Source: Liolophura sinensis
Lineage: Eukaryota > Mollusca > Polyplacophora > Chitonida > Chitonidae
Length of the DNA stretch: 64,000 bases
NCBI RefSeq assembly: GCF_032854445.1
Contig: NC_088304.1
Span: forward strand, 7,699,704 to 7,763,703
Direction of reading: 5' to 3'
Shown: positions 14,595-50,872 of the stretch, piece by piece
Position numbering within the stretch: the first letter of the stretch is position 1
Layout: each line of letters opens with the position of its first letter
Made by a program: the position numbers and the translations under genes
Notes under the pieces: generated by a model
What the model was told of the DNA's origin: nothing
Seen by the model: only the letters and a program-made list of their open reading frames with translations
Database searches by the model: none

Positions 14595-15543
14595 TTTCAG
14601 AGGGCATGCCCTCTCAATTAAAGTGTAAATGGTCAATGCCAAAGAGTTTTGAACGTTTTCCCACTGCACGCGTTGTCATAGATTCCACTGAAATTACTCA
14701 GGACATACCCACACCATTACATGTAGAAAATGTTTGTTACAGTAATTACGAAAGCAGACATACTGTAAACTCTGTTACTTGTGTTGCGCCAAATGCAGCC
14801 ATCGTTTATACATCAGATTCATACCCAGGATCTACCAGTGATAAGGCAACAGTAGCACATTCAAAACTTCTTGGGGCCTCCGTGGCTCAGTCGGTTAGCG
14901 CGCTAGCGCAGCGTAATAACCCAGGAGCCTCTCACCAATGCGGTCGCTGTGAGTTCAAGTCCAGTTCATGCTGGCTTTCTCTCCGGCCGTAAGTGGGAAG
15001 GTCTGCCAGCAACCTGCGGATGGTCGTGGGTGTCCCCCGGGCTGTGCCCAGTTTCCACCCACCATAATGCTGGCCGCTGTCGTATAAGTGAAATATTCTT
15101 GAGTACGGCGTAAAATACCAATCAAAAAAAAAAAAAAATCAAAACTTCTTGTTCGGTTCAAGCCAGCTGATCGAATTAAAGCCGATAAGGGATTTACATT
15201 GTTTGATATATTACCACAGGCGGGCAGTTTAAATATTCCTGCCTTTTTAAGTAATAAAACCCACTTCACTAAGGACAGTGCACAGCTCTGCTTTAAAATA
15301 GCAAAAGCAAGGATCCATGTTGAACAGGATAATGAGCGTATTAAAAATTTTGAAATTCTAAACCATATTCCCCAGCACTATAGGTCATTCTCCACAAAAA
15401 TATTTGAATTGTGTAGTGCTTTAGTTAATCTTCAATCACCATTGATTAAGGAGGTTGCAGAAAAGTATAACATTTCAAATTATTTGTATCGCAATTTCGA
15501 CATGAGAAAAATGCAAACAAAGATTGGGAATCTACTGTGGTAA
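14595..15543 (+). pseudogene. DDE_Tnp_4 transposase (ISL2EU-like), split by a SINE
   Basis: C-terminal catalytic part of a DDE_Tnp_4 transposase. Left half 14606-14873 contains the first catalytic Asp (VVIDSTEI) and SYPGSTSDK. Right half 15139-15543 contains KADKGF (second Asp) and RIHVEQDNERIKNF (catalytic Glu), then the usual IFELCSALVN. Removing the 14874-15138 SINE and one target duplication restores an uninterrupted frame, so all three acidic residues were present before insertion. An acceptor (TTATTTCAG) just before 14596 suggests earlier exons, but no N-terminal DNA-binding domain is recognisable upstream. The convergent YqaJ relic at 16.2-18.3 kb is the expected partner in ISL2EU elements. 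Confidence 0.8.
14874..15138 (+). mobile_element. SINE (tRNA-derived) inserted in a transposase
   Basis: Full-length copy: A-box TGGCTCAGTCGG, B-box GAGTTCAAGTCC, a conserved body (ACCATAATGCTGGCCGCTGT), then TTGAGTACGGCGTAAAATACC and an A-tail. The 13-bp target duplication TCAAAACTTCTTG is perfect (14861-14873 and 15139-15151). It is the best-defined copy of the dominant SINE in this window, possibly a molluscan V-SINE such as RUDI; I could not compare it. Confidence 0.95.
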
Positions 15544-28800: not shown

Positions 28801-31800
28801 GGATGGACATGATCTTGTTGTGTGGGATGGACATAATCTTCTTGTGTGAGATGGACATGATCTTGTTGTGTGGGATGGTCATGATCTTCTTGTTTGGGAT
28901 GGACATGATCTTGATGTGTGAGATGGACATAATCTTCTTGTGTGAGATGGACATGATCTTGTTGTGTGGGATGGACATGATCTTGTTGTGTGAGATGGAC
29001 ATGATCTTGTTGTGTGGGATGGACATGATCTTGTTTGGGATGGACATGATCTTGTGTGAGATGGACATAATCTTCTTGTGTGAGATGGACATGATCTTGT
29101 TGTGTGGGATGGACATGATCTTGTGTGGGATGGACATAATCTTGTTGTGTGGGATGGACATAATCTTCTTGTGTGAGATGGACATGATCTTGTTGTGTGA
29201 GATGGACATGATCTTGTTGTGTGGGATGGACATGATCTTGTTGTGTGGGATGAACATGATCTTCTTGTGTGAGATGGACATGATCTTGTTGTGTAGGATG
29301 GACATGATCTTGTTGTGTGGGATGGACATAATCTTCCTGGGTGGGATGAACATAATCTTCTTGTGTGGGATGGACATAATCCCTCTTGCTTGAGATGGAC
29401 ATGAAGTGTGGGATGGACATAATCTTCTTGGGTGGAATGGACATAATTTCCCTGAATGGGATTGTACATCACACACACAATTCCTACGTTTCTCACCTGG
29501 AATTAGCTCCACCACAAGGTTTCTTGCCAGAGGAGTGCGCATAATGATTGGAAGATTGAAGATCAGAGACTCATCCTTCACCGTGCAGGCTCGGTGTGTC
29601 TGAGAAAATAATCACAGAGCCACACATAATTTACTCTGCCCAGTTTCCTACCACCATAATGTTCTTGAGTAGGGCGTAAAACTCCCATCAAATAAATAAA
29701 GAAGAAACCATCATTCCCCAATGCTCTGCCTGGTTTCCTTCCTTGTCATATAAATGAAATATTCTTGAGTACGGCGCAAAACACCAACGAAATGAATAAA
29801 TGAATAATACATTTACTGTTTACACCGGAAATAATGTTATAAAGATCTCAGTGTTTGAACAATAACACTGAGAAAATAAAAGACAGGCTAATATTTTCTG
29901 GACAGTAAATGAGCCAAGTTAATTACTGTCCATGATGAAACATTGAAAACAACGGGGGCATCTGTTTTACTTCTGTGATTGAGCTTTATGCCATACTCAA
30001 ATATATATATGTGATTGTATATATTTTACTTACATGTACATTTGTACATTGGCAGTTAAGTTTATAGGTCAAAAGAATCCCTGTGGAGCACAGATAAAAC
30101 CGCAGCTCTTTTCCAGGCAAAATGGATTAGTCCATTGTGTGTCTCTTAGATAAGCTTTGTTGGGTGTATTTTTTCCTACAAATATAGCTTTCCTTTAGAT
30201 TTTCTTGCCCCAGTTTTCACAAAGAGCAGGTGTTTCTCGTTTAGCCACAAGCACGTGAAATTGCTATTCTGAATACACACAGTGTGACACCTGTACCAAG
30301 CATGCCAAGGAAGGCCACTCTACACTAACATCTACCACTGTTATTCCATCAACTTTAAAGGAGTAAAAAAACATGAAAAGGATCAAAATCAGATGAAAGA
30401 GCGTCAAAACTTATTTGCAAATATGATCTTCCTTTTTTCGACAGAAAGGGGTATTTGAAAATATTTTTGTATGGTGGAGATTTGGGACCAATTTTGGTAT
30501 TTATTGTTGTGGATAATAATGTTCTAAATAAGGATGTGATGCTTGTCTAATAAATTTATTTAAATGTAAATTTATTGTTTATATCTAAACATATGCATTT
30601 AACATAAATTATGATAATATTTATGAACATATTAAAAATATAAATATGATCCAAATTGAGGTTTAATACATTTGTTAGCTGAAAAGAACAAATTGTAGTG
30701 TAAAAATATTTATTAAACCTGTGTTACGTCCTCATTTATGAAATTATTAAACAAAAACTATAAATACGTAAAGGTGGTCCTAAATACCCACCATACAAAA
30801 ATCACTTTAAAGTGTCTTTTTCTCCTTAGGGAAAGAAATAAGGAAAAATATATTGAAGACCACATTTAGGAATAACCTTTCGTACTCTTTCATCTGAACT
30901 TTGTGTCATTTTTATGTTTTCTCCACCTTTAACCTCCTTCGCTACTTACCATATAACAGGGTGCAGAGAGAATCCAACAGGGAAGGCACAAAACACACCA
31001 GATGGCATTGCAATCAAAACAGTGCTGGTACTTGGACGAGTTGGTAATGTAGAAGCGGGCCTGTGAACTCTTTGTTGAAGTGTAGCACCCTTGAGCTCCA
31101 TCCAGCATTTCTGCATACCAATTCTCTATACAAGGTCCGAGGTCAAACTGTAACAGCAACAACAGGCATGCAACAAAGTTTAAATAATCAGGATAAGTGT
31201 CAAAGTGCACATTTTGTGATTGCATTACATACCCCAACTGATTTTTTACCATAAAAGTACCATAACCAAGAACTTTTCACTTCCTATACATTAGTGGTTA
31301 CTCATTAAGCATTGAGAAAACTGGTATGCCCGGAGAAAACTATTAAAACTGTTCACATGGGACATATGATATCATGTGCACGTAAGCACTGCTTACTGTC
31401 ACCCAGGCACCCAGAACAATGGAAGCACATGTACATGTAAGGCTAGGTGTTGACTGTTTTCTGTCACCCAGGCACAGAGAACAAGGGTAGCACATGTACA
31501 TGTAAGGCTAGGTGTCCACTGCTTACTATCACCCAGGCACCCAGAACAAGGGTAGCACATGTACATGTAAGGCTAGGTGTTGACTGCTTACTATCACCCA
31601 GGCACCCAGAACAAGGGTAGCACATGTACATGTAAGGATAGGTGTCCACTGTTTACTGTAGTACAAGGGTAGTACATGTACATGTAAGGCTAGGTTTCCA
31701 CTGCTTACTGTCACCCAGGCACCCAGAACAATGGAAGCACATGTACATGTAAGGCTAGGTGTTGACTGTTTTCTGTCACCCAGGCACAGAGAACAAGGGT

Positions 31801-34800
31801 AGCACAAATACATGTAAGGCTAGGTGTCCACTGCTTATTGTCACCCAGGCACCCAGAACAAGGCAAGCACATGTACATGTAAGGCTAGGCGTCCACTGTT
31901 TACTGTCACCCAAGCACCCAAAACAAGGGTAGTACATGTACATGTAAGGCTAGGTGTCCACTGCTTACTATCACCCAGGCACAGAGAACAAGTTTAGCAC
32001 ATGTATATGTAAGGCTAGGTGTCCTCTGCTTACTGTCACCCAGGCACCAAGAACAATGGAAGCACATGTTCATGTAAGGCTAGGTGTCCACTGCTTACTG
32101 TCACCCAGGCACAGAGAACAAGGGTAGCACATGTACATATAAGGCTAGGTGTCGACTCTTTACTGTCACCCAGGCACCCAGAACGAGGCAAGCACATGTA
32201 CATGTAAGGATAGGTGTCCACTGTTTACTGTCACCCAAGCGCCCAAAACAAGGGTAGTACATGTACATGTAAGGCTAGGTGTCCACTGCTTACTATCACC
32301 CAGGCACAGAGAACAAGGGTAGCACATGTACATGTAAGGCTAGGTGTTGACTGTTAACCGTCACCGAGGCACAGAGAACAAGGGTAGCACATGTACATAT
32401 AAGGCTAGGTGTCGACTCTTTACTGTCACCCAGGCACCCAGAACAAGGCAAGCACATGTACATGTAAGGCTAGGCGTCCACTGTTTACTGTCACCCAAGC
32501 ACCCAAAACAAGGGTAGTACATGTACATGTAAGGCTAGGTGTCCACTGCTTACTATCACCCAGGCACAGAGAACAAGGGCAGCACATGTACATGTAAGGC
32601 TAGGTGTCCACTGCTTACTGTCACCCAGGCACAGAGAACAAGGGTAGCACATGTACATGTAAGGCTAGGTGTTGACTGTTTACTGTCACACAGGCACAGA
32701 GAACAAGGGTAGTACACGTACATGTAAGGCTAGGTGTTGACTGTTTACTGTCACCGAGGCACAGAGAACAAGGGTAGTACATGTACATGTAAGGCTAGGT
32801 GTCCACTGCTTACTGTCACCCAAGCACCCAGAACAAGGGTAGCACATGTACATATATGGTTAGGTGTCCACTGCTTACTGTCACCCAGGCACCCCGAACA
32901 AGGCTAGTACATGTACATGTAAGGCTAGGTGTCCACTGCTTACTGTCACCCAGGCACCCAGAACAAGGCAAGCACATCTACATGTAAGGCTAGGTGTCCA
33001 CTGTTTACTGTAGTACAAGGGTAGTACATGTACATGTAAGGCTAGGTGTCCACTGCTTACTGTCACCCAGGCACCCAGAACAAGGGTAGCACATGTACAT
33101 GTAAGGCTAGGTGTCCACCACTTACTGTCACCCAGGCACCCAGAACAAGGCTAGTACATGTACATGTAAGGCTAGGTGTCCACTGCTTACTGTCACCTAG
33201 GCACCCAGAACAAGGCAAGCACATCTACATGTAAGGCTAGGTGTCCACTGTTTACTGTAGTACAAAAGTAGTACATGTACATGTAAGGCTAGGTGTCCAC
33301 TGCTGTCACCCAGGCACCCAGAACAAGGCAAGTACATGTACATGTAAGGCTAGGTGTCCACTGCTTACTGTCACCCAGGCACAGAGAACAAGGGTAGCAC
33401 ATGTATGTGTAAGGCTAGGTGTCCACTGCTGTCACCCAGGCACCCAGAACAAGGCAAGCACATGTACATGTAAGGCTAGGTGTCCACTGTTTACTGTCAC
33501 CCAGGCACAAAGAACAAAGGAAGCACATGTACACGTAAGGGGCTAGGTGTCCACTGCTTACTGTCACCCAGGCACAAAGAACAAAGGAAGCACATGTACA
33601 CGTAAGGGGCTAGGTGTCCACTGCTTACTGTCACTCAGGCACAGAGAACAAGGCAAGCACATGTACGTGTAAGGCTAGGTGTCCACTGCTTACTGTCACC
33701 CAGACACCAAGAACAAGGGAAGCACATGTACATGTAAGGCTAGGCTACTGTCACCCAGGCACCAAGCACAATGGAAGCATGCTTTGGACTGGGCCGGTGC
33801 ATCACTAGGTAAAGAGGATGATGTCTTAGATCAACCTTCCATTAAAGGGCTCTACAATAAAAGTTTTTATTGCGGTTTTGATTGAAAATATTTACTTTTA
33901 AAACCTGAATGATTTTCATTAGTGAGAATTAAATTAAATTACTCACAATATTTTATCTAACAGGGTTGGGTGATTCTCAACAAGACTTTTCTTAAGGTTG
34001 GCTTGATGTTTTCCCACAATGCTGTCTGATTCATTTATTTATTTATTTGGTTTTTTTACGCCGTAAGAATATTTCACTTATACAACAGCGACTAGCATTA
34101 TAGTGGGCAGAAACTGGGAAAAGCCCTGGGGAAACCTATGACCATCCACAGGTTGCTGCACGCCTTACCACGTAAGGCAGTGCAGTTTGGGCTATAGGAA
34201 CAGCTTTACAACAATCAATGGCAATAGTGTTTACCTCCAAGCAAAATTTGTCGCCGTTGGACATGTGTTCTCTGGCTTTACGGAATTCTTCTTCCATGGG
34301 TCTTCGAACAGCCGGGTTAAGAGGATTCAGTAACACAGCAAAATGACCTGGACAAAGCCAAACTGCCATTTACACATCAACTGTAGACAGATTTCATTTG
34401 ATATACACTAAATCACATCCTTCATGACTCCCTGAAGAAATGTGGATAGATTTCATTTGGTATACAGAAAATCACATCTCTCATGAAACTCTGAACAACT
34501 AAGAACAGATTTCATTTGGCATACAGAAAATCACATCTCTCATGAAACTCTGAACAACTAAGAACAGATTTCATTTGGCATATAGAAAATCACATCTCTC
34601 ATGAAACTCTGAACAACTAAGAACAGATTTCATTTGGCATACAGAAAATCACATCTCTCATGAAACTCTGAACAACTAAGAACAGATTTCATTTGGCATA
34701 TAGAAAATCACATCTCTCATGAAACTCTGAACAACTAAGAACAGATTTCATTTGGCATACAGAAAATCACATCTCTCATGAAACTCTGAACAAGTAAGAA

Positions 34801-37800
34801 CAGATTTCATTCGGTATACAGAAAATCACATCTCTCATGAAACTCTGAACAACTAAGAACAGATTTCATTTGGCATACGGAAAATCACATCTCTCATGAA
34901 AATCTGAACAACTAAGAACAGATTTCATTCGGTATACAGTAAATCACATCCCTCTTGAAACTCTGAACAACTACGGAAAATTTAATTTGGTATACAGTAT
35001 CTAAAAACACCCTGAACAACTCTGGACAGATTTCACTTGGTATATTCAACAAAACTAATCATGGATGTAGCAGATGAAAGAACATAAAATACTATCCATT
35101 AAGTAGAATTTATCACCACTTGAACAACAACATGTATGTACAAACTAACGTTTTTGTTTGCTCAGGAGCACTATTAACAGCCTGCAATGGCCCAAACAAG
35201 CATCTTGAAAGTTATGAAATGAACTGCATCCTTTGTGTTGCATCTAACAGAAAGTGAAATGGCCAACAGAAGGCGAATTGCCTCTGGCTGCAAAACTGCT
35301 GACAGAGAACACAAAAGAAGGACACTGGGTCTTTTACACACCATTTTTGATTAAAGCAAAAAATGCTAAAATATGAAGTAAGGTTCATCATACAGAGAAC
35401 TGAAAACAAAATATAAAAATACTTTCATTTACTTTTTTTTAGATTTGTTGTTGTGTTGAAAGGCATTCATATATCTGAATTCTATGGTGGGCTTTATCAA
35501 CCATATTGACTGTATCGAGGAATTCTGACGTCACATCATCTTTTTTTTTCCCAATGTTCATCAGAAGAAAGGAATTTTTGAGAACATTATTTCAGTAATA
35601 TTTTATTCTTTGGTAAAGAGACTCATTCCAAAATTCAATGTTGTAACGATAGTTGGAAAAACTTTCTGTGCCGCCAGAGTTCCTAAACTCTGATGGTATG
35701 GTCTATAAAGCCCACATTTGAATTCAAACATAAAAAAAAGAAAACATAAAAATGACATAATGTTCAGATGAAAGAGCACGAAAAGTTATTCCTAAATGTG
35801 GTCTTCAATATTTTTTCAGATTTTTCCTTAAGGAGAAAAGACACTTGATAATAATTAAACCTAATTTAGATCATATTTATGTTTTTAATATGTTCATAAA
35901 TATTATCATAATTTAGGTTAAATGCATATGTTTTGATATAAAAAACAAATCTACATTCAAATAAATTTATCAGGCAAGTATCACACCCTTATTTAGAACA
36001 TTACTATGCAACAACGACAAATAGCAAAAGTTGGTCCACAGACCCTTTTCCTTTGAAAAAAAAATCCCCAAAAATATTGAAGATCATATTTGCAAATAAG
36101 TTTTGACGTTCTTTCATCTGATTTTAGCATCATTTCTATGCTTCTTCTCCTTTAGCTCTCTTCCCAAAAACTTAAAAAAAAATACATGAAACTACATGTA
36201 TATTTATGCATAGTTTTGAATGTTTTTTTTAAATGATGCATACTTTGATTTTCAAAGATCTTTTCATTCACAATATTCCTCCAACTACGACTAAACTTTA
36301 AAAAAATTTGTCTGGAAAACTTACAAGTCTAAGACACCATTATTAAATTGAAAAAAGGTTTGACAGTCCACAAGAAAGAAAAACAGCCACACAAATTCTA
36401 AACTAAATCTATGTTGTTTTGAACTTGGCAGCAGTAGCAGTGCTTGATGTGACCTTACCCCTCCAGCGCGTTGTGACCCTGACATACACGTAGTTATCTG
36501 TCTTGGAATGAACAGCCATCATATCCAGCAACAGAGGTTTGGACAGCAAATCTCGCTCCCACGTTAATAGCTCCTCCATAGTTTCCACCTTTAAAGTCCT
36601 GAACGAAAGTGGAAAAAAAAAACACTTAAATAATCTTAAAAGAAATATATCAGAACATATCTGAAAATCTGATGAATATCACCTGAGATTGCATTTCACC
36701 AATATGACGTACATGTACATGTAAGCCTTGATCTTGTGCACTGAATGTACATCCTATAATTAGTAATAGTTGCCTGGCCTTGATTACTCTGGGCAGTCTG
36801 GTATGCCCCACTCATAACCCTGACCTCTGTCATATAAGCAACAAAAATCTTGTGTACGATATGTAGGATAAGCTAATTAATAAATAAATCAATGATCACT
36901 GACCAGCCATACAGTGTGGACATACATGTATTTCAGGGTTGGGGAAGCAAACCATGACAACTCGGCTAATATGCTCATGACTGCATGGATTTGATGTTCA
37001 TGACTGCATGGCTTTGATGTTCATGACTGCATGGTTAAAATGCTCATGACTGCATGGCTAAGATGTTCATGGCCACATGCCTAAGATGCTCATGACAACA
37101 TAGTTTTGATGTTCATGACCGCGAGGCTTTAACACTCATGACTGCATGGCTAAGATGCTCGCGCCCCATGCCTAACATGCTCATGACTACCTGGCAAAGA
37201 TCTTCATGATCGCATAGCTAACATCCTCGGGACTGCCTGGCAAAGATGCTCATGAGTGCCTGGCAAAGATGCTCATGACTGCATGGCAAAGATGCTCATG
37301 ACTGCATGGCAAAGATGTTCATGACTATTCAAGGGTAACATTTTCTGAACAGTAAATGTGCAAAGCTATTTACCCGTCCATGGTAAAGAAAATAAAACAG
37401 ACAGCATCTCTGACAACACAGACATGTACTCAAGTATAAACATGTGACGGTATATATTTAACTTGTGTCCCTACGAGGTGTATGAGAGCAAGAGAGTCCA
37501 CAAATTCCCTGCCCATGGCCAGTTTTGAACTCACACCTTGCCCAAGTCAAAAAAATCTTGTTAACCACTTGGCTATGGCCCACAGCCTCAGAGCTTGCAG
37601 TAAGGGCAAGTTAGAACTATGACAACATGGTCTCATAAGCTGAATCCACATTTCAAAAGGCCTCCGAAGTTCACGCAGGTTTAGGCGATGTGATTTACAG
37701 TAGTTGATAATGATGTCTTTTAAGCCGACAGGCCCAATTATGCAAGATGTTACTTATATTCTGTCTAGTAACTTCTGTAAAATCATGCCTTTTGGCCCCG

Positions 37801-39822
37801 TTGGTTTGCGAGAGTCCCCACATTGTCCAAATCATTGTGAACTCAGAACACTCTGAAATGCTCATTCTGCTCATTGTACATTGTTAAAATTTTGTTTAAA
37901 TTCATTAACAAATTTCTTACTTTTTCTGGATCACATAAATAAGCCCTTCTGTATGAGGAAACGTGCTTAACTCTGTCCACAGTACACATTGTACACTTTA
38001 AGGGCAAAACAGCACCTGGTTAAAACATATTTCCATCAAAAGCAGGATACTCAAGCTTTCTAAAAAATATCATGCTTTATTATTTTAATGTGATTTTTCA
38101 CATTTTCTACAAGCTTTTTCACCGAATAACATGTACAACAAAATGACAACACCGCAGAAATGGCTGGTGTCAATCGAGACAGACTTCTTAAGAATTTTCC
38201 CCAATAAAAAACATTGCTATCAGATTGTGTGGCCTATGCTATTATGTAACAACGATAAATACCAAAAGTTGGTCCCAAATACCTATCATACAAAAATATT
38301 AATTCACTGACTCCATGAAGTGATATATAACACAGAACTACTGTAGCCGAAGGGCCATTTCACGCAGTGTTGTGGGACAGGTCTGTATCAGTTACAAACC
38401 ACCACAGACGTAAAATCAGTTGATTTACAAGTCGTATAATACTCAACGACGGCATCACAAATTATGTCAGCCAGCAGCATACCGTCTCAGCTCCAAACGG
38501 CATTCATCTCCCAGTAGACCTTAGGCCTACTTTTTCAAATTATACAAATACATTTTTTGTCGTTCATGTTAGCGTTTAGTCAGCATGCAGTTGCTAAATA
38601 ACAAATATCAAAGTCAGTGAAAAATTATTTAGGGATGGCAAAGATTTATGGGAATGAGAAGACGTCATCTCATCAGACAATGCTTAAAATTAATTAAATC
38701 CTACGTAATGATATTTTTTTTCTCTGAATTTATTAGAACTGAAGAATTTAAATTTTGCCCTTTGTCTTTCTCTCATACAAGGAATGTTTTTTTCTGTTTT
38801 CTTTTATAAAATACATTGAAAGGCCCTGTTTACGCCGAGGTGCTTTCTCTGACTTCCGCAATAACTAGGTCAGCACTGTGCCCATCTTAGAAGCCACCAC
38901 AACAAAACTGAAGGATAAGATCCAGCGACACACGAATGCTTAGATCAGCCTCAGTGGTGCTTAGATTTATTTCCATTTGTGTCAGAATTGAGCATGAATC
39001 CAGTTGTACACGATCCTATTGTAACTTTGTAAACATTTAATAGGGGTCAGAATTACCCATACCAGCACAGCCCCTCTGGCGGCTACGACCTGAACCAGAA
39101 ATACCCCGGCCTTGTAAACTATACAGTAGGCCTCCTGTGTGAACAGTTCAAGAAGTGGAAGTAATGTCCTTCCAGTATGTCCAATTTGCTACAAAGCTAT
39201 TTATCACCTCGTCCTTCATTGGGGAAGTTCACAACTTTAATCTGCCCTAGGCTATTGCTTAAATCTATTACAGTACAGGAAATATCTTCCACGTTAGAGA
39301 GATACAAGTTCTTATTTGTTCCTTTTCATGGCCGTTGTCCTGAGGGGAATCCCCTTCCAACTCCACTATCGAATATCCATTGGCCGAGAAACACAGGATA
39401 AGACGGCCTTTGATACCGAAGATAAGTTACCACTGCGGTTAGTATCCAGCATAACACATCAAAACTACAATTTTATATACACGCTGTCTTTCAGTTCTGG
39501 GTAAAACTTTTTTCTTCATTTCTCGTTATCTTGTGTGTGTGTTTGTGTGTTCTTGGTGTTTTTCTTACCTGGAAGTGGAACTTGCCATTACATTGACGCG
39601 AGCAGGATCAAACTGAAACTGGCCCGACCTCGGATTCCTTGTAAACAAGTTGTACATCAGAGTTGGATCCGCCATGAATTCATTCCATGACACTATGGTC
39701 ACTGGGCTAATGCTCGCCATGTTAACGGTATATGTCACTACTGTCTTGACACAATCTTCGAAAACTTTGTCCGCAGATCTTCCGCTACTTGATTTCGCAA
39801 TGATCACATCCGCCTTTTCCCC
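25815..39822 (-). CDS. Unrecognised protein with Cys-rich segment and Pro-rich PPPY tail
   Basis: Seven minus-strand exons join with matching phases: 39569-39822, 36459-36598, 34235-34347, 30950-31147, 29497-29599, 26989-27201 and 25815-25990. They total 1197 nt, 398 residues to the stop; the 5' end was not found. All use GT-AG sites. I do not recognise the family. Residues 1-170 look like a soluble folded region (DPTLMYNLFTRNPRSGQF; NPLNPAVRRPMEEEF). Residues ~170-236 are Cys-rich, with CFDCNAIWCVLCLPCWILSA as a short hydrophobic Cys cluster that could be palmitoylated or membrane-inserted. The last ~130 residues are Gln/Pro-rich and contain PPPYSPPGY, a PPxY ligand for WW domains, and PPPDYQP. 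A membrane-proximal adaptor of WW-domain ubiquitin ligases is one possibility, inferred only from the motif. Introns are crowded with minisatellites, a MITE and SINE fragments. An in-frame stop lies just upstream of the first exon listed, so the start is in an earlier exon or at an internal Met. Confidence 0.7.
26282..26425 (-). mobile_element. SINE fragment
   Basis: In the last intron of the PPxY gene, GGTGTTTTGTGCCGTACTCG and GAATATTTCACTTATACAAC match the SINE 3' body in reverse orientation. The tRNA-like head is absent. Confidence 0.7.
26590..26705 (-). mobile_element. SINE fragment
   Basis: ACGCCGTACTCAAGAATATT and CACCATAATGCTGG (reverse complement of CCAGCATTATGGTG) identify the SINE 3' body. 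It is truncated before the promoter boxes. Confidence 0.75.
27640..29460. repeat. 24/21-bp minisatellite, about 75 copies
   Basis: A long array of GGGATGGACATGATCTTGTT + GTGT units (24 bp) with interspersed 21-bp units lacking one TTG. It fills the intron between exons 29497-29599 and 26989-27201 of the PPxY gene. Both unit lengths are multiples of three, and no common variant makes a stop, so frames of several hundred codons stay open on both strands. These are most simply a by-product of the repeat and are not annotated as genes. Confidence 0.95.
29630..29805 (+). mobile_element. Two SINE tail fragments in tandem
   Basis: CCACCATAATGTTCTTGAGTAGGGCGTAAAACTCC...AATAAATAAA and GAAATATTCTTGAGTACGGCGCAAAACACC...AATGAATAAATGAATAA are adjacent copies of the SINE 3' end, about 95 bases apart, without heads. 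Confidence 0.75.
30355..30932. mobile_element. MITE copy 2, TTAA-flanked
   Basis: Same family as 17349-17931, in the opposite internal orientation, about 578 bp and flanked by TTAA at 30355 and 30929. Its edge lies only 17 bases from the 5' splice site of the PPxY-gene exon 30950-31147. Confidence 0.85.
31383..33780. repeat. 65-bp minisatellite, about 36 copies
   Basis: Units contain TACATGTAAGGCTAGGTGTC and CTTACTGTCACCCAGGCACC. The array lies in the intron between exons 34235-34347 and 30950-31147. Shorter units (TTACTGTAGTACAAGGGTAG, which lacks the CACCCAGGCACC part) recur near 31660, 33010 and 33255. Each unit carries the self-complementary core GTACATGTAC or a close variant. Confidence 0.95.
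34035..34160 (-). mobile_element. SINE fragment
   Basis: TTTATTTATTTGG, TTTTACGCCGTAAGAATATTTCACTT and CTAGCATTATAGTGGGCAGAAACTGGG match the SINE 3' body in reverse orientation, with a small deletion in the GTACTCA segment. Confidence 0.75.
34382..35045. repeat. 59-bp minisatellite, about 11 copies
   Basis: Units contain AGATTTCATTTGGCATACAG and ATCACATCTCTCATGAAACT. Central copies are nearly identical and the two ends are degenerate. It lies in an intron of the PPxY gene and starts 35 bases from the acceptor of exon 34235-34347. Confidence 0.95.
35738..36154. mobile_element. MITE copy 3, internally deleted
   Basis: Both ends of the family are present (GAAAACATAAAAATGACATA ... CTATGCTTCTTCTCCTTTAG), but the copy is about 415 bp and lacks roughly 170 bp of the left interior. 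The terminal TTAA sites are eroded. Confidence 0.8.
36955..37330. repeat. Degenerate ~21-bp minisatellite
   Basis: About 17 imperfect units of the type TTCATGACTGCATGGCTAAG in the first reconstructed intron of the PPxY gene. Unit length varies, so copies are old or rapidly mutating. Confidence 0.85.
38232..38300. mobile_element. MITE fragment
   Basis: AACAACGATAAATACCAAAAGTTGG...CCCAAATACC...CATACAAAAATATT matches the right interior of the MITE family (compare 58390-58445). Neither end is present. Confidence 0.65.
38310..39560. other. Intronic DNA of the PPxY gene, nothing recognised
   Basis: No minisatellite, SINE or convincing exon was seen between the MITE fragment and the donor at 39568. 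Small plus-strand open frames around 39177-39504 have no domain and no good splice context. Confidence 0.4.
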
Positions 39823-40329
39823 CTGAAAACCACCGGCCTTTAAATATCAGAATCGACATAAGGTGTAAAACTAGGTTATGACCCTGTTTTAACTCCGTCT
39901 TACATGTCTTCAGCACTATGCCTGTACTGTAACGTTAGGGATGCGATCTTACGCTTCAGAAATTAACGGTTTGCCTAAATGGGGTAATGACACATAATAG
40001 GCTGTTGATTAAAATGCACTTTATTGTATTGAGGAGGGTACCGTGGGGAAGGTAGAAAACCTATTATTTCAGACATCTCCAGTATATAATATACCAGTAT
40101 TAGTATACGTGCCAATATTTAGTATATTTGGAGGTAGCCTACATCACCAAAAGACATTAATATATATATATTTGGTGTTAAATCACAAACTGGATGAAGA
40201 TGTCTCCTATGACGCACAGTAGACATGAATCATAGTTTATACGTAGATGAAACCAGTTAGAGCCTATAATTAAAGGAGAAACCAGGGCCAAAACTCGGAG
40301 GAGGAGCGAGTAAAGGATTGAAGGAAACA

Positions 40330-41790
40330 CATCAGAACCCAGAAGAGAAACCAGCCAAAACTTGGAGGAGGAACCAGTCTGAGCCAGGAGGAGAAACCAT
40401 GCAACCAAAACTTGGAGGAGGAACCAGTCTGTGCCAGGAGGAGGAACCATGCAACCAAAACTTGGAGGAGGAACCAGTCTGTGCCAGGAGGAGGAACCAT
40501 GCAGCCAAAACTTGGAGGAGGAACCAGTCTGAACCAGGAGGAGAAACCATGCAGCCAAAACTTGGAGGAGGAACCAGTCGGAGCCAGGAGGAGAAACCAT
40601 GCAGCCAAAACTTGGATGAGAAACCAGTCGGAGCCAGGAAGAGAAACCATGCAGCCCAAACTTGGAGGAGGAACCAATCTGAGCCAGGAGGAGAAACAAG
40701 CCAAAACTAGAAGGTTGAACCAGTCTGAGCCAGGAGGAGAAATCATACAGCCAAAAATTGGATGAGGAACCAGTCGGAGCCAGGAGAAGGGACCATGCAG
40801 CCAAAACTTGGAGGAGGAACCAATCGGAGCCAGGAGGAGAAACAAACCAAAACTTGAAGGTGGAACCAGTCTGAGCCAGGGGGGGAAACAAGCCAATTAA
40901 CTTGAAGGTGGAACCAATTAGAGCCAGGAGGAGAAACCATGCAGTCAAAACTGTCTGAGCCAGGAGGGAAACCACCCTAAACTTGGAGGAATAACCGAGT
41001 CACAGATTAAAGGAAACATCCTGGAGGAGAAAAACAATCTGAGCCTGAAGGAGAAAACAATCTGTCTGAAGGAGAAAAAATCTCAGCCTGGAGAAAAAAA
41101 AAGTCTGAGCCTGGAAGAGAAAACAATCTGGGCCTTGCATGAGGAGAAAACATTCTGAGCCTGGAGGAGAAAGCAGTCTAAGCCTGGAGAAAATAACACA
41201 GTCTGGAGTAGAAACCAATCAGGGCCAGAAAAAATAGTCAATTAAAAGGCTGGAGAAAACCAGCCAGATCATGGAGGAAAATGCAGTCTAAAACATAGAG
41301 GAGAAATCAGCCAAAGTCTGCCAGCTAGAGAAACCAGTCAGTCTGGAAAACCCCCATCAGAAACTGCCAGCAAAACCAGTCAATGTCTTGAGGAGAAACC
41401 ATGCATGCATGCAGGCAGAGCTAGCCTGACAGAATTAACAAATCGATCAGAGCCTGGATGAGAAACCAGTCACATCCTAAAGGAAACATATCAGAGCCTA
41501 GAGGAGAACCCAGTCTGAGTCTGGAAAAAATGAGTCAGAGCCTGGGAAAACCAGCCAGAGCCTAGAGGAGAAATCAGTAAGTCAAAGTCTGCAAGAAGCC
41601 AGTCGATCTGGTCATAGAGGAAACCATGGAATCGGAGCTTGGGTGACAAATGTCAAAGTCTATAGACAAGAAACCAGTCAGAACCAGAAGAAACCAGCCT
41701 GAGCCTGAAGGAGAAACCACCAATGTACTTGACAAACCAGCATACATGCAGAACCTGGATCTGGACACACAATCTCACTGACTGATCATC
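40330..41790. repeat. 50-bp minisatellite and degenerate extension
   Basis: From 40330 to about 40990 are ~13 units of 50 bp including AACTTGGAGGAGGAACCAGT and GAGCCAGGAGGAGAAACCAT. From 41000 to 41790 the same GAGCCTGGAGGAGAAACCAGTC-like words continue with irregular spacing. The strand bias is strong (purine-rich plus strand). Confidence 0.9.
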
Positions 41791-41799
41791 CCACATGAG

Positions 41800-43160
41800 G
41801 CATATCTTGTCTTTATTATCTAAGTAACACTATTAATAACATTGCATTTTCATACTGACCTTCTTTATTCAGACATAGCTGTATATAGATAATTAATAAA
41901 AGATTATATTGTTTTCATCCATTGATGAAGTTTGAGTAGAAAAATACTGCACATACATGTAAGTCAGAATGCCAAATTTTCATTAAACGGTTGGTGGTGT
42001 TTTATTCCAGGTATTGTGCAGGCTTCTTCCATGTAGGTGTGAAACGGATCACTGTCGTATTTTATAAATGTGGTGTCAGCTTTACTGCTGTTTTGCGAGT
42101 TTTGCGGGTGAAATGAAGACAAGGTCCCTCAATGTTGTCACAGAAGCATTATTACTCTTGTTGCCCCGTGAAACCAAGAAGAGTTACAAACAGGTCAGTC
42201 AGAATATATCATTCGATATAACATAAATTGTGTTAATGTTAACAACGAATTCTATGTCAATCATTCAGTTCGGAGGCAAATCTTGGACCCATTTACCTGA
42301 ATTGTGCATGTGTGCATAGCCTTCTCCAATATGGCTACCAAAACTAGGTCATGTAAACCCGAATTTCTGCTTGTACTCTAACAAATAGGGCCTACATACT
42401 ATACACAACTATACTATATATTACACAGATGTTTAAATATATGTAAGCCTACAGATTTTCTCTTCCCTTAACAAGTTAACAAGTCAAATTGAGGGGAAAC
42501 AGATGTGCCCTCTGGTTATAGAAATAGCACATCTGATTGGATAAAACTGATAACATGGCGGGCTCTTAACTGTTAAAATATTCATGTGTTTGCTTACTTT
42601 GAACTACGATATTTCAGTTGCCTTCTCTTTGAATTAAAGACTGCCCTCCATAATTAGGGTACTTTAGTGTTAGGAATAGTTCAGTCTTAGCTACACAACT
42701 GTTCTAAATGGTTGATAAGGCCAAAAGTATGATACATGTCGACATACATTGAGGACATGGAGTGGTAGGGCCTACAGAAAGCAGACTGGTACAGAAGTGG
42801 GTGAGATTACAGTATTTGCAGCCTTCACATGGAAAGACAATAAACATCAAAGGTGACTTATATCATGGTACAAGGATTAATACTTATATATGTACTGTAT
42901 CAGACCTAAACTTTTCCTTCAAGAAAAGATAAAATTGTAAGTTTCAGCACCAGCGTTAATTAATATGACCTTTAATATTTTTTTTTTCTTCTAAAAGTGT
43001 ACCTTTGGGGGCAAATGCAGTATATGGCAATGGCTTGCAGCTTTTGCCACCTCTGCATAGGTCTCTTTAGCACTGTTTAGTGGGTTTACCTTGAAAGGAT
43101 ACATGTGTACATTTTTACTTAAATATTCCTCTAATGGCATTCTGAACTAAAATCAGCAGA
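41800..43160. other. DNA upstream of the YR-DDE gene
   Basis: No repeat identified. A short plus-strand segment 42113-42193 opens with ATG, encodes 27 residues with a Leu run and ends in a donor (AACAG|GTCAGT). It could be a first exon of an unknown gene, or of the YR-DDE gene, but no acceptor was matched. Pyrimidine-rich TTTTTTTTTCTTCTAAAAG near 42977 is one possible acceptor. Confidence 0.35.
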
Positions 43161-43220
43161 TGCACGCATATGCGTCTGTTGATTAAGTTAGCTCCCTTTG
43201 TCCATCTGTCAAAAACAATA

Positions 43221-46200
43221 ATGGCGTCGCTAAAGCGATTCGCCGACACAACGGAGGAAGAGATTGAAGTAAAACGTATCAACATTAATGCCAAAAACAC
43301 CGTGAAGGCCAACGGCAAGTGCAGTCGAATATTGCGTGCATACCTCGTTGAAAAATGTCAGCCAGCAGACTTTGAAAGTTTTGGTGAGGCTGAGTTGAGT
43401 GAAGCGTTGTCGCATTTTTACGTCGATGCACGAAAACCGGACGGCGAACAATACAAGGCTGCATCGCTGGAAGCGATTCGCCATGGACTAAATCGCTATC
43501 TCAAAGCGCCGCCTCACAACAAAACATTCGACATCATCAAGGACCCAGCATTTAATGAGGCTAACAAGAATTTTAAAGCCGCTATGGTGGAGTTGAGAAA
43601 GGCAGGCCTGGGAGATACAACACACCATCTTCCCATTGGCGAAAATGACCGGGCCAAGTTATACAGCTCGCCACATATGTCCACGAAAACACCCACCGGT
43701 CTCCTCAATAAGGTTCAGTTTGATGTGAGACTTTATCTGTGTCGACGTAGAGCAGAAAATATGCGCTCCATGACCAAGTCAACATTCGTCGTCGACACTG
43801 ATCCCAAAACAGGACTTAAATTTGTGACCAAGAAACACCAAGGGCTGCATGGTGAAAAGGAGAGCGCTTGTGTCATGCCCGAAAGCCCAGGTGAATACAA
43901 ATATTAATGAATCTGGAGTCATGTGTCGTCAAATTTACAATATATCTCAATGTAAAAAAAATTCATATAAATTGATAATATGTAGGGGCCTATGGTTATT
44001 ATAAACAGATCAAGCCCTTAATTATATTAACTTTGCGTAAACATTGTGTTTTGTAAATAACACAAAAAGAGCACTTTGATTGTATTTCACAAGTTGAAAA
44101 TACGTATAATTATGTTTAACAATTGCATAGGTAGATCATCGAGAATAAAACAGTATACAGTAAAAATTATGAATTTTCTGTCACAAATGAAACATTATAA
44201 TGCCCAGTATATAATAATTGATTTACATGCATATATGTGAATATCATTGTAGCAGAATTATGTAGAATAATCAAATGCTGCATTCTTTCTAGTACAAGAC
44301 CGATTTTGTTTTGTAGGTTCGCCATTTTGTCCTGTAGCGTCATTTGAAGCTTATTTGGCGAAACTTCATCCTGGATGTGACAGCTTGTGGCAACGGCCTT
44401 TTGTTAAATTTTTGAATGAAGACCCCGTGTGGTACTATAATGTAGCCGTGGGTGAAAAAATGCTGTCATCTTTCATGACGAGACTTAGCGTGGCCGCTGA
44501 GTTATCCAAGGTTTATTCAAACCATTCCATCAGAACCACTGGGTCTGTTATTTTGTCAAAAGCCGTGTTTGGAGCAGATCAAGTAATTACTGTAACTGGC
44601 CTCAAGCCTGTTCAGGCACTGACAGTGTATCAGAAGGTTGACAGAATTATTATTCAGGGCATTATAGAACACCAATCAAGCATTGCAAAGGTTGACAATG
44701 ATAACACATCGAAAATGGCCAATACGTTGAGGACAAGCCTTTCGTCTGATCACCTGCAGCTTTCTCAGGTGACACAACAAGACGTAGCTTTACCCGAGTA
44801 CACTACAACTGAGGCTGCTACTACAAACCGCCATTCTTCATTCAACCAGGTATTCCTTGATGGAGCAAATATTCATGAACTTCTCAAAGATTTTAATTTA
44901 ACTGTAAATGGCTCTGTTTCCACTTCATTAAGACCACATGTTTTCAAAGGTTACATAAGTTACGTTGCAAAATCCAACCATACAGGAGGTCATTTGTATT
45001 TTAAGGATAATTGTATGTCCATCAAAAATGTAACTCATTACATTGTCATTTTAATTTAACTTCTACATACGCAGTTTCCTTGAACTTAAAGGTTATAACA
45101 TAATTATAACGTTGCCCACTGAATTTTAAAATTACAACGTTACTTTAATGTCTTATTTTGTGTTTTTTTTGTTTATTTTTGTCTTGTTTTTTTTTTTTTC
45201 CCCGCAGCATATTGCAGATGGAAAACCAACTGTAGAAAACCCAGATCCAGTATCTGATAATCCTTATGATCATCTTGTACCCGTACCAGACCTAGCAAGG
45301 GAGCCAGCACAAGAAATGGAGACTACAAGTATGAAGCAGGACGAAAACGAAATACAAAGTGGTAAGACATATTCATGAGTTTAATTAGGCTTTGTTAGCA
45401 AGGAAAGGTTTATATTAGCATAAGGACAGAGTTTATAACCTTCACCTAATTTGCCTGAGCTGAGATGTCGGATGAGGGACAGGCATCCTCTGCGTGTAAC
45501 TGTCATAAAACAACAAAAGCATCAAGCTGCTCTCTGCCAGCAGGACACAGTACAAATTGACTCCGGCATGAAATATGCAAATTTCATCTTTTTAAAAAAA
45601 AAGAAAACCAAAAAAAAAACCCCAGAATTTTGTGAATTTTCTGTTGTAGTAAGTGGCTAGAAAAGCACTGCATTGATCTGCCTGTGTTAATGGACAAATG
45701 GTGTATAAAAGTGGAACATTTTATTGGGTGAAGACATTAGACCCTCAGTTATTATGGTAAATGAATAAAAAATGTATAAAAAAAAAGTGTTTTGAGCTCT
45801 CTGACTTTCAGATGTTCTGGCTGGAGTTAATGTCATTTAGTACGATCAGAGTGTCACTCGTGGCCAATCAAAACATCAGTTGGGACTCATCCGTTCTAAA
45901 GAAATGTACTCTCGGTCATTTTACTCTGCATAGTTTCTGTATATGATATGTGCTTTTCTGATGTGTTTCAGGAATTTTGAGTAAGTTTGATATCCTCGCG
46001 TTAGCCGCTGGAAATAGAAAGGTTTCTGTTAAAGACGAAAGTCTTGAACTAAGCGACAGTGCCAAAAAGCCTGATATGATGGCGGAGATAGACAGACTTC
46101 GTGAGGAAATAGCTAGAGTATGTCTAGAAAAAGAAGACCTACAACGTGCTGTCGAATATCTTCAGCATGAGTTGCGTGCAAAAGAAGAAACCAAAGTTCA

Positions 46201-47134
46201 TTATTTTCGATTTTCTACACTGCAGCTGAAAGACTTTGAGTATTATACTGGGTATCTCTATGAAAGCTTTCTTGAGCTCAGTAAGTTTCTCATTCCCAGT
46301 GATGAAGCACCCTTCCAACACTCCAAACCCCTGAATTGTTTATCAGAGTTAACGTTTCAGGACCAGCTTTTGTTAGTTTTGATGAAGTTACGTCAAGACT
46401 TTGACTTTAGACATTTGGCAACATTGTTTGGAACTTCATCACAAGACTGCTGTGGTGTTTTCAGTGACTGGATGAATTACATGTTTTATAAGTTTGGATC
46501 TGTGCCCACATCTATATGGCCTCACAGGGATACAATCATTGAAAATATGCCAACTGAGTTTAAGCAGGACTTTCCAAACACTCTGTCCATTATTGATGTA
46601 ACAGAAGTCAAAATACAAAGACCACAGACTGTGAGGACAGAGAGCCAGAGTCAGTTTTACTCGGACAAGACCTGCACCACATTGAAAGGAATCATTGGTG
46701 TGGATCCTAGAGGAGCCATTACATTTGTATCTATGCTTCACTACAGTTCTATGTCAAATAAAGACTTGGTAAAGCTTTGTGGCTTCTATCGAATTTTGAA
46801 ACAGTTGCTGCAAAGTGGAGTGATGAAGGAAGGAGATGGAATAATGGCAGGTAAGGATTTCCCAATAGAAAAAGAAATTCAGAATTTAGGACTGGAACTG
46901 AATGTTCCTCCCATTGCTCCATCATCTACGAGTGAGATGTCTGCTTCTGATGTGACTCAAATGAACAAGATCGCTAAACATCATGTCCATGTTGAACAAG
47001 CCATCGCGCGTATTAAAGAGTTCAAAATATTGTCAAGCAAGTCGAGCCTAGGACTGTTTAAATCAGTGAATCAAATTTGGAGGGTGTGTTGTCTATTGAC
47101 TAATTTTATGCCATTCCTCACAAATAAGGATTGA
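43221..47134 (+). CDS. Crypton-type tyrosine recombinase fused to DDE_Tnp_4 transposase
   Basis: Four plus-strand exons with GT-AG sites and matching phases: 43221-43890, 44317-44849, 45208-45361 and 45972-47134; 2520 nt, 839 residues. Residues 1-~340 are a Crypton/DUF3504 (KIAA1958-like) tyrosine recombinase: an N-terminal SAM-like part, the Arg box CRRRAENMRSM (~175), NHSIR (His-x-x-Arg, ~293-296) and the Tyr in LTVYQKV (~328). The usual TGHK reads TGLK (~319), so the second active-site His is Leu. Residues ~400-455 are an acidic Pro-rich linker. Residues ~487-526 are a coiled coil, ~575-630 an HTH-like segment, and ~655-830 a DDE_Tnp_4 domain with IIDVTE (first Asp, ~661) and HVEQAIARIKEF (Glu, ~794). 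The usual ADRGF is AGKDF (~745), losing the second Asp at its normal place. In related transposases a THAP domain usually precedes the coiled coil; here a YR domain stands there. If the donor at 44849 is not used, the frame ends at 45059 and yields a 470-residue YR protein alone. MASLKRF was chosen as start because such proteins usually begin so; an in-frame ATG-like start also lies at 43170. Confidence 0.7.
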
Positions 47135-47172
47135 AAGCAGATTTTGTTTCATTGACTCTCTTTTACTTTGTT

Positions 47173-47217
47173 AAAAAAAAAAACAAAAAAAAACAATGCG
47201 ACTTGATTTCAATTAAA
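47173..47217 (+). terminator. A-rich tract and ATTAAA downstream of the YR-DDE gene
   Basis: An interrupted A-tract (47173-47194) is followed by ATTAAA at 47212, the commonest variant polyadenylation signal, about 80 nt after the stop. It would give a very short 3' UTR. Confidence 0.3.
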
Positions 47218-47589
47218 TCAACGTTGAGTAGGATATTTGTATTTGTTGGCGACACTGTGGTCAGGCTTTGAGTTTGTGTGGTTTGTTTATTTCTGCGTCC
47301 TGCATACAAGTTAGAACTGTAGCGTCACAGGCATCAGTCAAATGTAATCGTAGACACATAGGAAATGTACAGTAGCAAACTGAAAGCTTTTTTATGGCAG
47401 ATTGATCCAAGGTGACTTTCCGCTGCACCACCCCTCCAGCCGACGCTGGCAGAACATCTTCCAAACAGGTTTCCTCTGTGCTTCATTGCTGTACAGGCTG
47501 TCTTGAATGTCCAGAACTTCAATACATATATGAACCTGTACATCCATACTCTTAAGTGTAGATACGTGTATCATCAATATGGAGAGAGG

Positions 47590-47820
47590 CTTGTGTAGCC
47601 GAGTGTGTTAATAGCACAGTAAATCAGAAGCCTCTCACCAATGTACTCGCTGGCTTTCTTTGCGGTGGTATGTGAGAAGGTCTGCCAGAAACCTGCAGAT
47701 GGTAGTGGGGTTTTCTCTGGCCTCTGCGTGATTTCCTCCCACCGTCATGCTGGCCGCTGTTGTTTAAGTGAAAAATTCTTGAATACGGCGTAAAAATAAA
47801 TAAATACATGAATAAATGCA
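47590..47820 (+). mobile_element. SINE with decayed head
   Basis: AGCCTCTCACCAATG, GAAGGTCTGCCAGAAACCTG, CACCGTCATGCTGGCCGCTG and TCTTGAATACGGCGTAAAA plus AATAAATA tail match the family. The A-box region is diverged (TGTAGCCGAGTGTG) and the B-box segment is deleted. Confidence 0.8.
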
Positions 47821-48182
47821 AGAGTGGTAATTGACAGCTAGTGAGCGACTCCATTCCTGTTACTGAAGTAATTTTTATTACGCTGTAGTTTAAAGAGCGA
47901 AATTAACATATACAGCCAGTGTTTGGAATATACAACTACAACCTCAGGTTAGATGCAGCATTTGTGTTAGGAGTAAAAAGGCTATTATTTATTAGATCAG
48001 GGAGTGATTTGGTAATAATAACATGTCTTTCAGTTGCCGAGACAAAATGTGTGAGTTCAATCCCCATCTTTGACTTGGATTTTGTTAGTTGTTAATGCCA
48101 GTTTTCTTTCATTTTTAAAACTCATTGCCTTAGTGGAAGTGAAAATTCTGACGTCATGCCCTAACGATGAGAGCATGATTGA

Positions 48183-48461
48183 TTTTTTTTTTTTTTTTTT
48201 TTTTTTTTGATTGGTGTTTTACGCCGTACTCAAGAATATTTCACTTATACGACGGCGGCCAGCATTATGGTGGGTGGAAACCGGGCAGAGCCCGGCGGAA
48301 ACCCACGACCATCCGCAGGTTGCTGGCAGACCTTCCCACGTACGGCTGGAGAGGAAGCCAGCATGAGCTGTTCTTGAACTCACAGCGACCGCATTGGTGA
48401 GAGGCATCTGGGTCACTACACTGCGCTAGCGCGCTAACCGACTGAGCCACGGAGGCCCCTC
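48183..48461 (-). mobile_element. SINE (tRNA-derived), young full-length copy
   Basis: Complete minus-strand copy with a pure T-run (A-tail on its own strand) at 48183-48208, an intact body, B-box and A-box (CGACTGAGCCACGGAGGCCCC at its 5' end). The 14-bp target duplication GAGAGCATGATTGA is perfect (48169-48182 and 48462-48475). It is probably the most recent insertion in the window. Confidence 0.95.
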
Positions 48462-48479
48462 GAGAGCATGATTGAAGCC

Positions 48480-49215
48480 TGACACATTGTTTGTCAGATG
48501 CCAATACACTCCAACAAGAACAAGGCCATAGCCGACGGAGCCAGCGAGAACTCAAATCCATTACTAAACTGGACAACAAGTGCTTCAGCTTCTGTCCGCT
48601 ATCAATATGTGATGGTGTTTCCTGCCTAAAGGGATCGCCATTTCATTTCATTTTATTCACCATACCTGTATATGCAAATCATGAAATAAATACATAGATA
48701 TACATGTGGAAGACATCTGACAGGAATAAAGCTCATGGGAGCTTGTTCTGTTGCGTCGATAGTAGAATATTAATGGAGCACACAGGGAATATTTGTGTGC
48801 AGTGATAATATTTTAGTGTGTCACATATAGATATACATGGAAACAAAAAACATTAATACAAAAAAGACGTAAGAAACCTTATGAACCTTTATGTGTGAAC
48901 TAAATTACACCTTAATTAAATTGTTCCAAGGTAATTCAAGTCTGGATTGAAAACAGATGCGGAATTTGTACTATGAAGAGTGATTGGTAGTTTATTCCAT
49001 TCTCAAGGACAAATTGTTCTTAACGAGTGATGGGGAGCAGAGTGTTTTAACATAGGTTTCAAAGCTGGGAGGAATTAGTTTGGGATGATAGAAAGACTTG
49101 TATGGTCAGGTCTCACAATGGTAGGATACACAGTTGACGGATGGAGGGAGTGTTACCATTTCTTTTTGAATGAGAGTGTGAATGATGCATTTCTTCAGAA
49201 TCATCAAAGGTACAT
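48480..49215. other. Intergenic DNA, nothing recognised
   Basis: No gene or repeat family identified. The right end (from about 49190) grades into the degenerate first units of the following minisatellite. Confidence 0.45.
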
Positions 49216-49221
49216 GCTGTA

Positions 49222-50872
49222 GATACCTGACATGAAGCCTCTGCCAGTGCAGTGACATTAGGGAGATTGTTGCTTGGTATTATATTGCCTTATTGGCAAA
49301 CCATGCTGTGGACACCAGACATGACACCTGGGCCAGTATAATGACATTAGGGACATCAGTATTTGGTATTATATTGCTTTTTTGGCACACCATGATGTAG
49401 ACACCAGGCATGACACCTGAGCCAGTATAATGACATTAACGACATCAGTATTTGGTATTATATTGCCTTTTGAGACACCATGCTGTAGACACCAGGCATG
49501 ACACCTGAGCCAGTATAATGACATTAGGGACATCAGTATTTGGTATTATATTGCCTTATTGGCGCACCATGCTGTAGACACCAGGCATGACACCTGAGCC
49601 AGTATAATGACATTAGGGACATCAGTATTTGGTGTTATATTGCCTTATCGGCACACCATGCTGTAGACACCAGGCATGACACCTGAGTCAGTATAATGAC
49701 ATTAGGGACATCAGTATTTGGTATTATATTGCCTTATCGGTACACCATGCTGTAGACACCAGGCATGACACCTGAGCCAGTATAATGACATTAGGGACAT
49801 CAGTATTTGGTATTATATTGCCTTATCGGCACACCATGCTGTAGACACCAGGCATGACATCTGAGCCAGTATAATGACATTAGGGACATCAGTATTTGGT
49901 ATTATATTGCCTTATCGGCACACCATGCTGTAGACACCAGGCACAACACCTGAGCCAGTATAATGCCATTAGGGACATCAGTATTTGGTATTATATTGCC
50001 TTATTGGTACACCATGCTGTAGACACCAGGCATGACACCTGAGCCAGTATAATGACATTAGGGACATCAGTATTTGGTATTATATTGCCTTATTGGCACA
50101 CCATGCTGTAGAAACCAGACATGACACATGAGCCAGTATAATGACATTAGGGACATCAGTATTTGGTATTATATTGCCTTATTGGCAAACCATGCTGTAG
50201 ACACCAGGCATGACACCTGAGCCAGTATAATGACATTAGGGACATTAGTATTTGGTATTATATTGCCTTATTGGCACACCATGCTGCAGGCACCAGGCAT
50301 GACACCTGAGCCAGTATAATGACATTAGGGACATCAGTATTCGGTGTTATATTGCCTTATTGGCGCACCATGCTGTAGACACCAGGCATGACACCTGAGC
50401 CAGTATAATGACATTAGGGACATCAGTATTTGGTGTTACATTGCCTTATCGGCACACCATGCTGTAGACACCAGGCATGACACCTGAGCCAGTATAATGA
50501 CATTAGGGACATCAGTATTTGGTGTTATATTGCCTTATCGGCACACCATGCTATAGACACCAGGCATGACACCTGAGCCAGTATAATGACATTAGGGACA
50601 TCAGTATTTGGTATTATATTGCCTTATCGGCACACCATGCTGTAGACACCAGGCATGACACCTGAGCCAGTATAATGACATTAGGGACATCAGTATTTGG
50701 TATTATATTGCCTTATTGGCACACCATGCTGTAGACACCAGGCATGACACCTGGGCCAGTATAATGACATTAGGGACATCAGTATTTGGTATTATATTGC
50801 CTTATCGGCACACCATGCTGTAGACACCAGGCATGACACCTGAGCCAGTATAATGACATTAGGGAGATCGTT
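49222..50872. repeat. 89-bp minisatellite, about 18 copies
   Basis: Units contain CCAGGCATGACACCTGAGCC, CATTAGGGACATCAGTATTT and GGCACACCATGCTGTAGACA. Inner units are 95% or more alike. The outermost left units are diverged (AGGGAGATTGTTGCTTGG) and resemble the right edge (AGGGAGATCGTTACTATTTG). Each unit carries TTATTGG or TTATCGG in blocks, consistent with segmental amplification. Confidence 0.95.

Follow-up and report, generated by a model that had tools for sequence, protein, structure and literature searches.

An open frame of four exons on the forward strand of the chiton Liolophura sinensis joins a Crypton-like tyrosine recombinase (YR) to a DDE_Tnp_4 transposase domain, and at roughly even confidence we read it as a single-copy host gene that was built from two unrelated transposons and whose halves are spliced together via exon 3 (table 1). 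The window, by which we mean the whole 64,000-nt stretch that was analyzed (contig NC_088304.1, positions 7,699,704 to 7,763,703), holds both sets of domains in this frame, which occurs once in the genome and has lost the second catalytic Asp of its DDE part; the gene would function as a DNA-binding host chimera. In the history that we propose, a Crypton YR unit, with homology from 43167 to 44985, would have come to lie 5' of an HTH-DDE exon from an ISL2EU-related transposase that lacks its THAP exon; the linker exon 3 would now splice YR to HTH-DDE. DNA binding is the likely mode of action, with the YR fold and the HTH both contacting DNA, the helical segment of exon 4 would pair two chains, and the disarmed DDE fold would serve as a scaffold rather than as a nuclease.

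Table 1. Features of the candidate gene in window coordinates (feature, position, strand, description)
Exon 1	43221..43890	+	N-terminus of the Crypton-like tyrosine recombinase (YR), including box I; ATG at 43221
Exon 2	44317..44849	+	Remaining recombinase core (HxxR and Tyr), then a fast-evolving tail
Exon 3	45208..45361	+	Linker exon, without relatives in its own genome
Exon 4	45972..47134	+	Helical segment, HTH_Tnp_4, DDE_Tnp_4, stop
Exon-2 run-on	44850..45059	+	Exon-2 frame read on to a stop; intron 2 if there is one gene, YR C-terminus if there are two
Crypton-derived unit	43167..44985	+	Limits of the homology seen: start against L021, end against L024
Gly codon GGT	46850..46852	+	Exon-4 residue 293, where relatives carry the second catalytic Asp
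ATTAAA	47212..47217	+	Candidate poly(A) signal 3' of the stop

The exons (670 + 533 + 154 + 1163 nt) sum to 2520 nt and give 839 codons and a stop in a single frame, and all three introns are GT-AG with phases that fit, which counts for a one-gene reading; the coordinates, sum and phases of the initial annotation are all borne out. As a sequence this frame is real, and it is unusual. The joined protein matches the Pfam models DDE_Tnp_4 (101.9 bits, cut-off 24.8), HTH_Tnp_4 (41.0 bits, cut-off 27) and DUF3504 (33.1 bits, cut-off 29.7), so that the three parts that had been assigned to one frame from the sequence alone each score above their cut-offs. Exon 2 by itself reaches 19.5 bits for DUF3504, which is below the cut-off, and exon 4 by itself gives 42.3 bits for HTH_Tnp_4 and 102.8 bits for DDE_Tnp_4. 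The QRICH1 domain model scores 29.2 bits on the joined protein, just below its cut-off of 30.8, and 31.6 bits on exon 1 alone.

Relatives of the recombinase half are common in the genome, with at least 66 matches to exon 1 (150 of 236 candidates scored) and at least 102 to exon 2 (150 of 234 candidates scored). Among the candidates scored, the nearest copy lies on contig C8, has 63% protein identity and one stop, and is also the nearest DNA match (75% identity over about 540 nt); eight of the next ten best exon-1 matches contain stops. The C8 copy and a C9 copy have the start of intron 1, donor included, in common with the window and further intron sequence in common with each other. In six distant copies (L023, L011, L012, L008, L007, and L018) no more than about 100 nt separates the exon-1 match from the exon-2 match, and intron 1 is therefore absent there. 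A tree of eight sequences separates the window and the C8, C10, and C9 copies from the four others with support 100, and within it the C8, C10, and C9 copies form a group without the window with support 97. The window YR keeps its active site, with the Arg of box I, the Lys, the His and Arg of NHSIR, and the Tyr, and the catalytic tetrad R-H-R-Y is thus present; an additional His is replaced, GHKS of the relatives reading GLKP. Boxes were assigned by motif, and we take the residues to have the roles that they have in tyrosine recombinases in general. Because the Arg, Lys, HxxR, and Tyr remain, the recombinase might still cut and rejoin DNA, though the usual second His is Leu. A sequence search of the PDB with the YR part returned QRICH1 at an e value of 0.12.

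Selection was assessed over 324 codons, drawn from exon 1 and from codons 1 to 109 of exon 2, in five sequences with stops masked, to which the C10 copy contributed 124 codons. When branch-specific omega was fitted without a clock, the three related copies gave 1.02, that is, neutral evolution, and the window branch gave 0.26, which is indistinguishable from 1 (2dlnL 1.28, dead tips separate) because the saturated outgroup leaves the root free; with all other branches under one omega, 2dlnL was 27.4. A clock that puts every tip at equal depth is permitted by the neutral lengths found for the three related copies, which by our sums run from 0.73 to 0.79 when measured from the node that they share. 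In the clock-constrained codon model omega of the window branch was 0.19 and neutrality was rejected (2dlnL 76.8); 2dlnL was 59.4 without the outgroup, 63.0 for exon 1 alone (omega of the window branch 0.16), and 13.0 for the exon-2 core alone. The tail of exon 2 has an omega near 1. The YR core thus seems to be under purifying selection, and it does so only under the clock assumption. Two features go beyond the initial annotation, namely the Gly in place of the second DDE Asp and a retained YR tetrad that looks selected under the clock.

Exon 4 has 58 matches in the genome, the nearest others being 39% identical. The exon is an open frame of 386 codons despite the lost second Asp; the first catalytic Asp and the Glu are present. 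All ten other aligned sequences with residues at the second position have Asp there, a count that omits an open reading frame (ORF) at 14453-14989 of the window that ends before this position. Together with a second ORF at 15103-15540, it forms another DDE_Tnp_4 gene on the forward strand (50.5 and 49.7 bits), and the 15103-15540 ORF keeps the Asp of ADKGF and the Glu of HVEQ. A low-confidence structural model of exon 4 (pLDDT 57) places the Gly just after a strand, as would be expected for the second Asp, and predicts helices at residues 34-49 and 53-73; Foldseek with this model found Mos1 as its best match (E 0.002), with none at an E of 0.001 or better, and the only match of exon 4 in a PDB sequence search was an unrelated one (E 0.015).

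Genomic relatives of exon 4 carry THAP, HTH_Tnp_4, and DDE_Tnp_4 according to Pfam, L017 in one frame and L016 in two, and a same-strand THAP hit precedes at least 21 of the 49 clustered DDE loci, in agreement with the earlier statement that related DDE_Tnp_4 proteins bear a THAP domain. The nearest relative, L002, adjoins an ORF that matches Viral_alk_exo (37.7 bits, cut-off 20) and, just under the cut-off of 22, YqaJ (21.6 bits), which fits ISL2EU elements (PMC4482050). THAP-HTH-DDE transposases of the ISL2EU-like kind are the relatives of the DDE half. The window itself gave no THAP match (150 of 248 candidates scored), and the C2CH pattern of THAP does not occur in 30000-48000, so that the idea of a more distant 5' THAP exon whose intron houses the YR found no support from either the profile search of the window or the pattern search of that interval. 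The suggestion that the YR fold replaced THAP as the DNA-binding module may hold.

The full-length gene matches only its own locus (nine DNA matches in all), and exon 3 matched only itself in the genome at E values up to 1; the gene is single copy and without close mobile copies, as is expected of a domesticated gene. When typed matches were clustered, we obtained 178 YR loci and 151 DDE loci, among which two YR-DDE pairs are no more than 5 kb apart where uniform placement predicts 0.44, and none of the matches found forms a second locus with YR and DDE on one strand within 5 kb. A pair on contig C9 (L018, C9:26666500-26673500) was considered as a single element and rejected, its DDE ORF being on the reverse strand and its YR relic on the forward strand about 3 kb away; its DDE copy and those on C6 and C12 match exon 4 equally well. 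The two halves are therefore separate families that meet at the window locus, and their adjacency alone could be due to chance. Separate occurrence of the halves elsewhere, which the initial annotation had held would speak against the join, does hold for the relatives within this genome; it makes the join specific to this locus, not false.

Whether there is one gene or two depends on the passage from exon 2 to exon 3. The main rival, which we regard as possible but doubtful, is a pair of adjacent genes on the same strand, a domesticated Crypton YR ending at 45059 and a transposase-derived gene that begins either at the in-frame ATG of exon 3 (45316) or within exon 4, and the separate location of YR and DDE relatives in the genome is in its favor. 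By a weight matrix with frequencies taken from general knowledge, the exon-2 donor at 44849 is weak, 8% of the GTs in 40-50 kb scoring the same or higher, and a donor-like site at 44768 outscores it, both of which count against one gene. The exon-2 frame also stays open past 44849 for 69 codons, to the stop at 45059, and the chance of these 207 open nucleotides is 0.006-0.022. Over 44850-45056 GC by codon position is 0.39, 0.29, and 0.23, a pattern possible for coding sequence, but the codon score is not coding-like and resembles that of non-coding DNA (P 0.73). Part of this run-on is Crypton DNA, since the C10 copy L024 shows homology to 44858-44985 (score 147 vs. a maximum of 95 in 400 shuffles), and this counts against the one-gene reading; no homology to L024 was found after 45060. 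GC falls after 44866 (interval 44831-44997), and because it also falls in the C10 copy (0.40 to 0.31) the change gives no separate evidence of splicing. The run-on was also considered as ancestral protein and set aside, its MAFFT identity to L024 of 0.63 being inside the shuffle range (maximum 0.643). Differences between the window and L024 over the run-on are flat by codon position (18/13/19), and protein-level matching gave a P of 0.027 for L024 and of 0.08 to 1.0 for the six other copies tried; because of these values the impression of a C-terminal motif shared with distant copies was dropped. A loose local alignment of the region exceeded shuffles against L024 and did not do so against L021.

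The signals at exon 3 argue for the single spliced gene. Its acceptor is strong, 0.13% of 750 AGs scoring at least as high, and requires an upstream exon, which would have to be a non-coding one if there are two genes; its donor has a score reached by 0.9% of GTs. Exon 3 is open over 51 codons in the frame that exon 4 needs (chance about 0.02-0.03) and has a codon score above that of nearby non-coding sequence (P 0.007). Exon 4 starts with a phase-1 acceptor, by our own reading within one codon of that in L002, and therefore needs an upstream exon. Neither AATAAA nor ATTAAA occurs between 44850 and 45763, whereas an ATTAAA follows the stop at 47212, which again counts for one gene. These signals predict that exon 2 is joined to exon 3 by splicing. 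The host-gene reading also gains from the clock-based selection on the YR core, from the loss of the second Asp in a frame that is open otherwise, and from the gene's full-length match being with itself alone; the clock-free selection fit counts against it. Exon 4 nevertheless contains the best donor-like site of the region, CAGGTAAGG at the Gly codon at 46850, which scores 11.44 bits and ranks first of 562 GTs in 40000-50000; it was created by the change of the second-Asp codon and is formed by the G-GT of the Gly codon within CAG|GTAAGG. Such a strong site within exon 4 counts against the one-gene model. Since the protein is collinear with its relatives across 46850 we read the region as coding, but an alternative transcript using this site is possible and the gene model is uncertain there.

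If the halves do form one host protein, a variant that we put forward tentatively is that the selected YR, with its catalytic tetrad, is a possibly active recombinase for which the HTH and the DDE part, disarmed at its second Asp, act as a DNA-binding and pairing module. That there is no host gene at all, but an intact Crypton copy from a late-active lineage without close copies that happens to lie beside a decaying DDE relic, we consider improbable. The window branch is indistinguishable from neutral when no clock is imposed, a functional mobile lineage would likewise give a low omega, chance adjacency is possible with two YR-DDE pairs seen and 0.44 expected, and the loss of the second Asp would suit a relic; against this, the nearest YR copy is only 75% identical in DNA, so that no recent burst is seen, and exon 3 is coding-like and in phase with exon 4. 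A composite mobile element carrying both enzymes has a precedent in a fungus (MarCry; PMC3212892), but here we disfavor it as very improbable, given a single-copy gene and a DDE part without its second Asp. A search of 41000-50000 for inverted repeats of at least 14 nt gave none that fits as a terminal repeat, the only ones that could bracket part of the gene being A/T runs and one 36-nt pair (72%), and this too speaks against a composite element.

MarCry-1_FO of Fusarium oxysporum is a Crypton-mariner composite transposon and, like the window gene, combines a Crypton YR with a DDE transposase in one unit (PMC3212892). Unlike the window gene it is mobile, with 16-bp TIRs, TA TSDs, and four copies that are more than 97% identical; its DDE transposase is of the mariner and not the PHIS type, and the consulted part of the source does not state that both domains are in one protein (PMC3212892). 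The initial annotation's remark that no element of this architecture had been described therefore needs qualification, as this composite is in print; the remark stands insofar as MarCry-1_FO is a TIR/TSD element and not a fused host gene. Animal DUF3504 genes (KCTD1, KIAA1958, ZMYM2/3/4, QRICH1, and WOC) resemble the window gene in having a Crypton-derived YR domain fused to other domains in a host gene, whereas they have lost the catalytic Tyr and the second Arg, both of which the window YR keeps, and in the part of the source consulted no DDE_Tnp_4 part is described for them (PMC3212892). ZMYM1/5/6 have hAT-derived C-termini and are without DUF3504 (PMC3212892). The YR in an intron of bird ATF7IP is likewise Crypton-derived, apparently selected, possibly catalytic, and possibly spliced into a larger protein, but its partner is not a transposase and a fusion transcript was unknown to its authors (PMC3212892). 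Transposases of ISL2EU, in the PHIS superfamily, share HTH and DDE_Tnp_4 with the window gene and differ from it in having THAP and an intact triad (PMC4482050), and domesticated PIF/Harbinger genes are likewise transposases of the same superfamily that became host genes (PMC9710019). Judged by titles and the beginnings of abstracts, we recognized no description of a YR-DDE fusion gene among the open-access papers listed.

On present sequence evidence the window gene would belong to the chimeric host genes derived from transposons, with a predicted join between its halves. If this is true, two recombinase folds of different chemistry can combine in one host protein, and the gene becomes a clear candidate for an animal tyrosine recombinase that was domesticated and is still active; the latter is significant because the described animal DUF3504 genes have lost the Tyr and the second Arg, with the bird ATF7IP YR as a possible exception (PMC3212892).

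The rest of the window contains several repeats and further coding matches. A dispersed repeat at 48190-48460 shares 93% identity with part of L024 and 91% with part of L021, and 47618-47795 together with 48217-48417 may be an inverted, diverged pair of this repeat. Long tandem arrays lie at 2595-3724 (period 57), 27636-29444 (period 24), 31387-33744 (period 65/130), and 49213-50869 (period 89), the second of which is inside a stop-free frame of 757 codons on the reverse strand (27341-29611). A VWA domain on the forward strand at 3795-4421 (37.3 bits, cut-off 23.8) adjoins the 57-bp repeat array, and a Surp module on the reverse strand at 61197-61538 (53.4 bits, cut-off 21.1) is presumably an exon of a splicing-factor-like gene.
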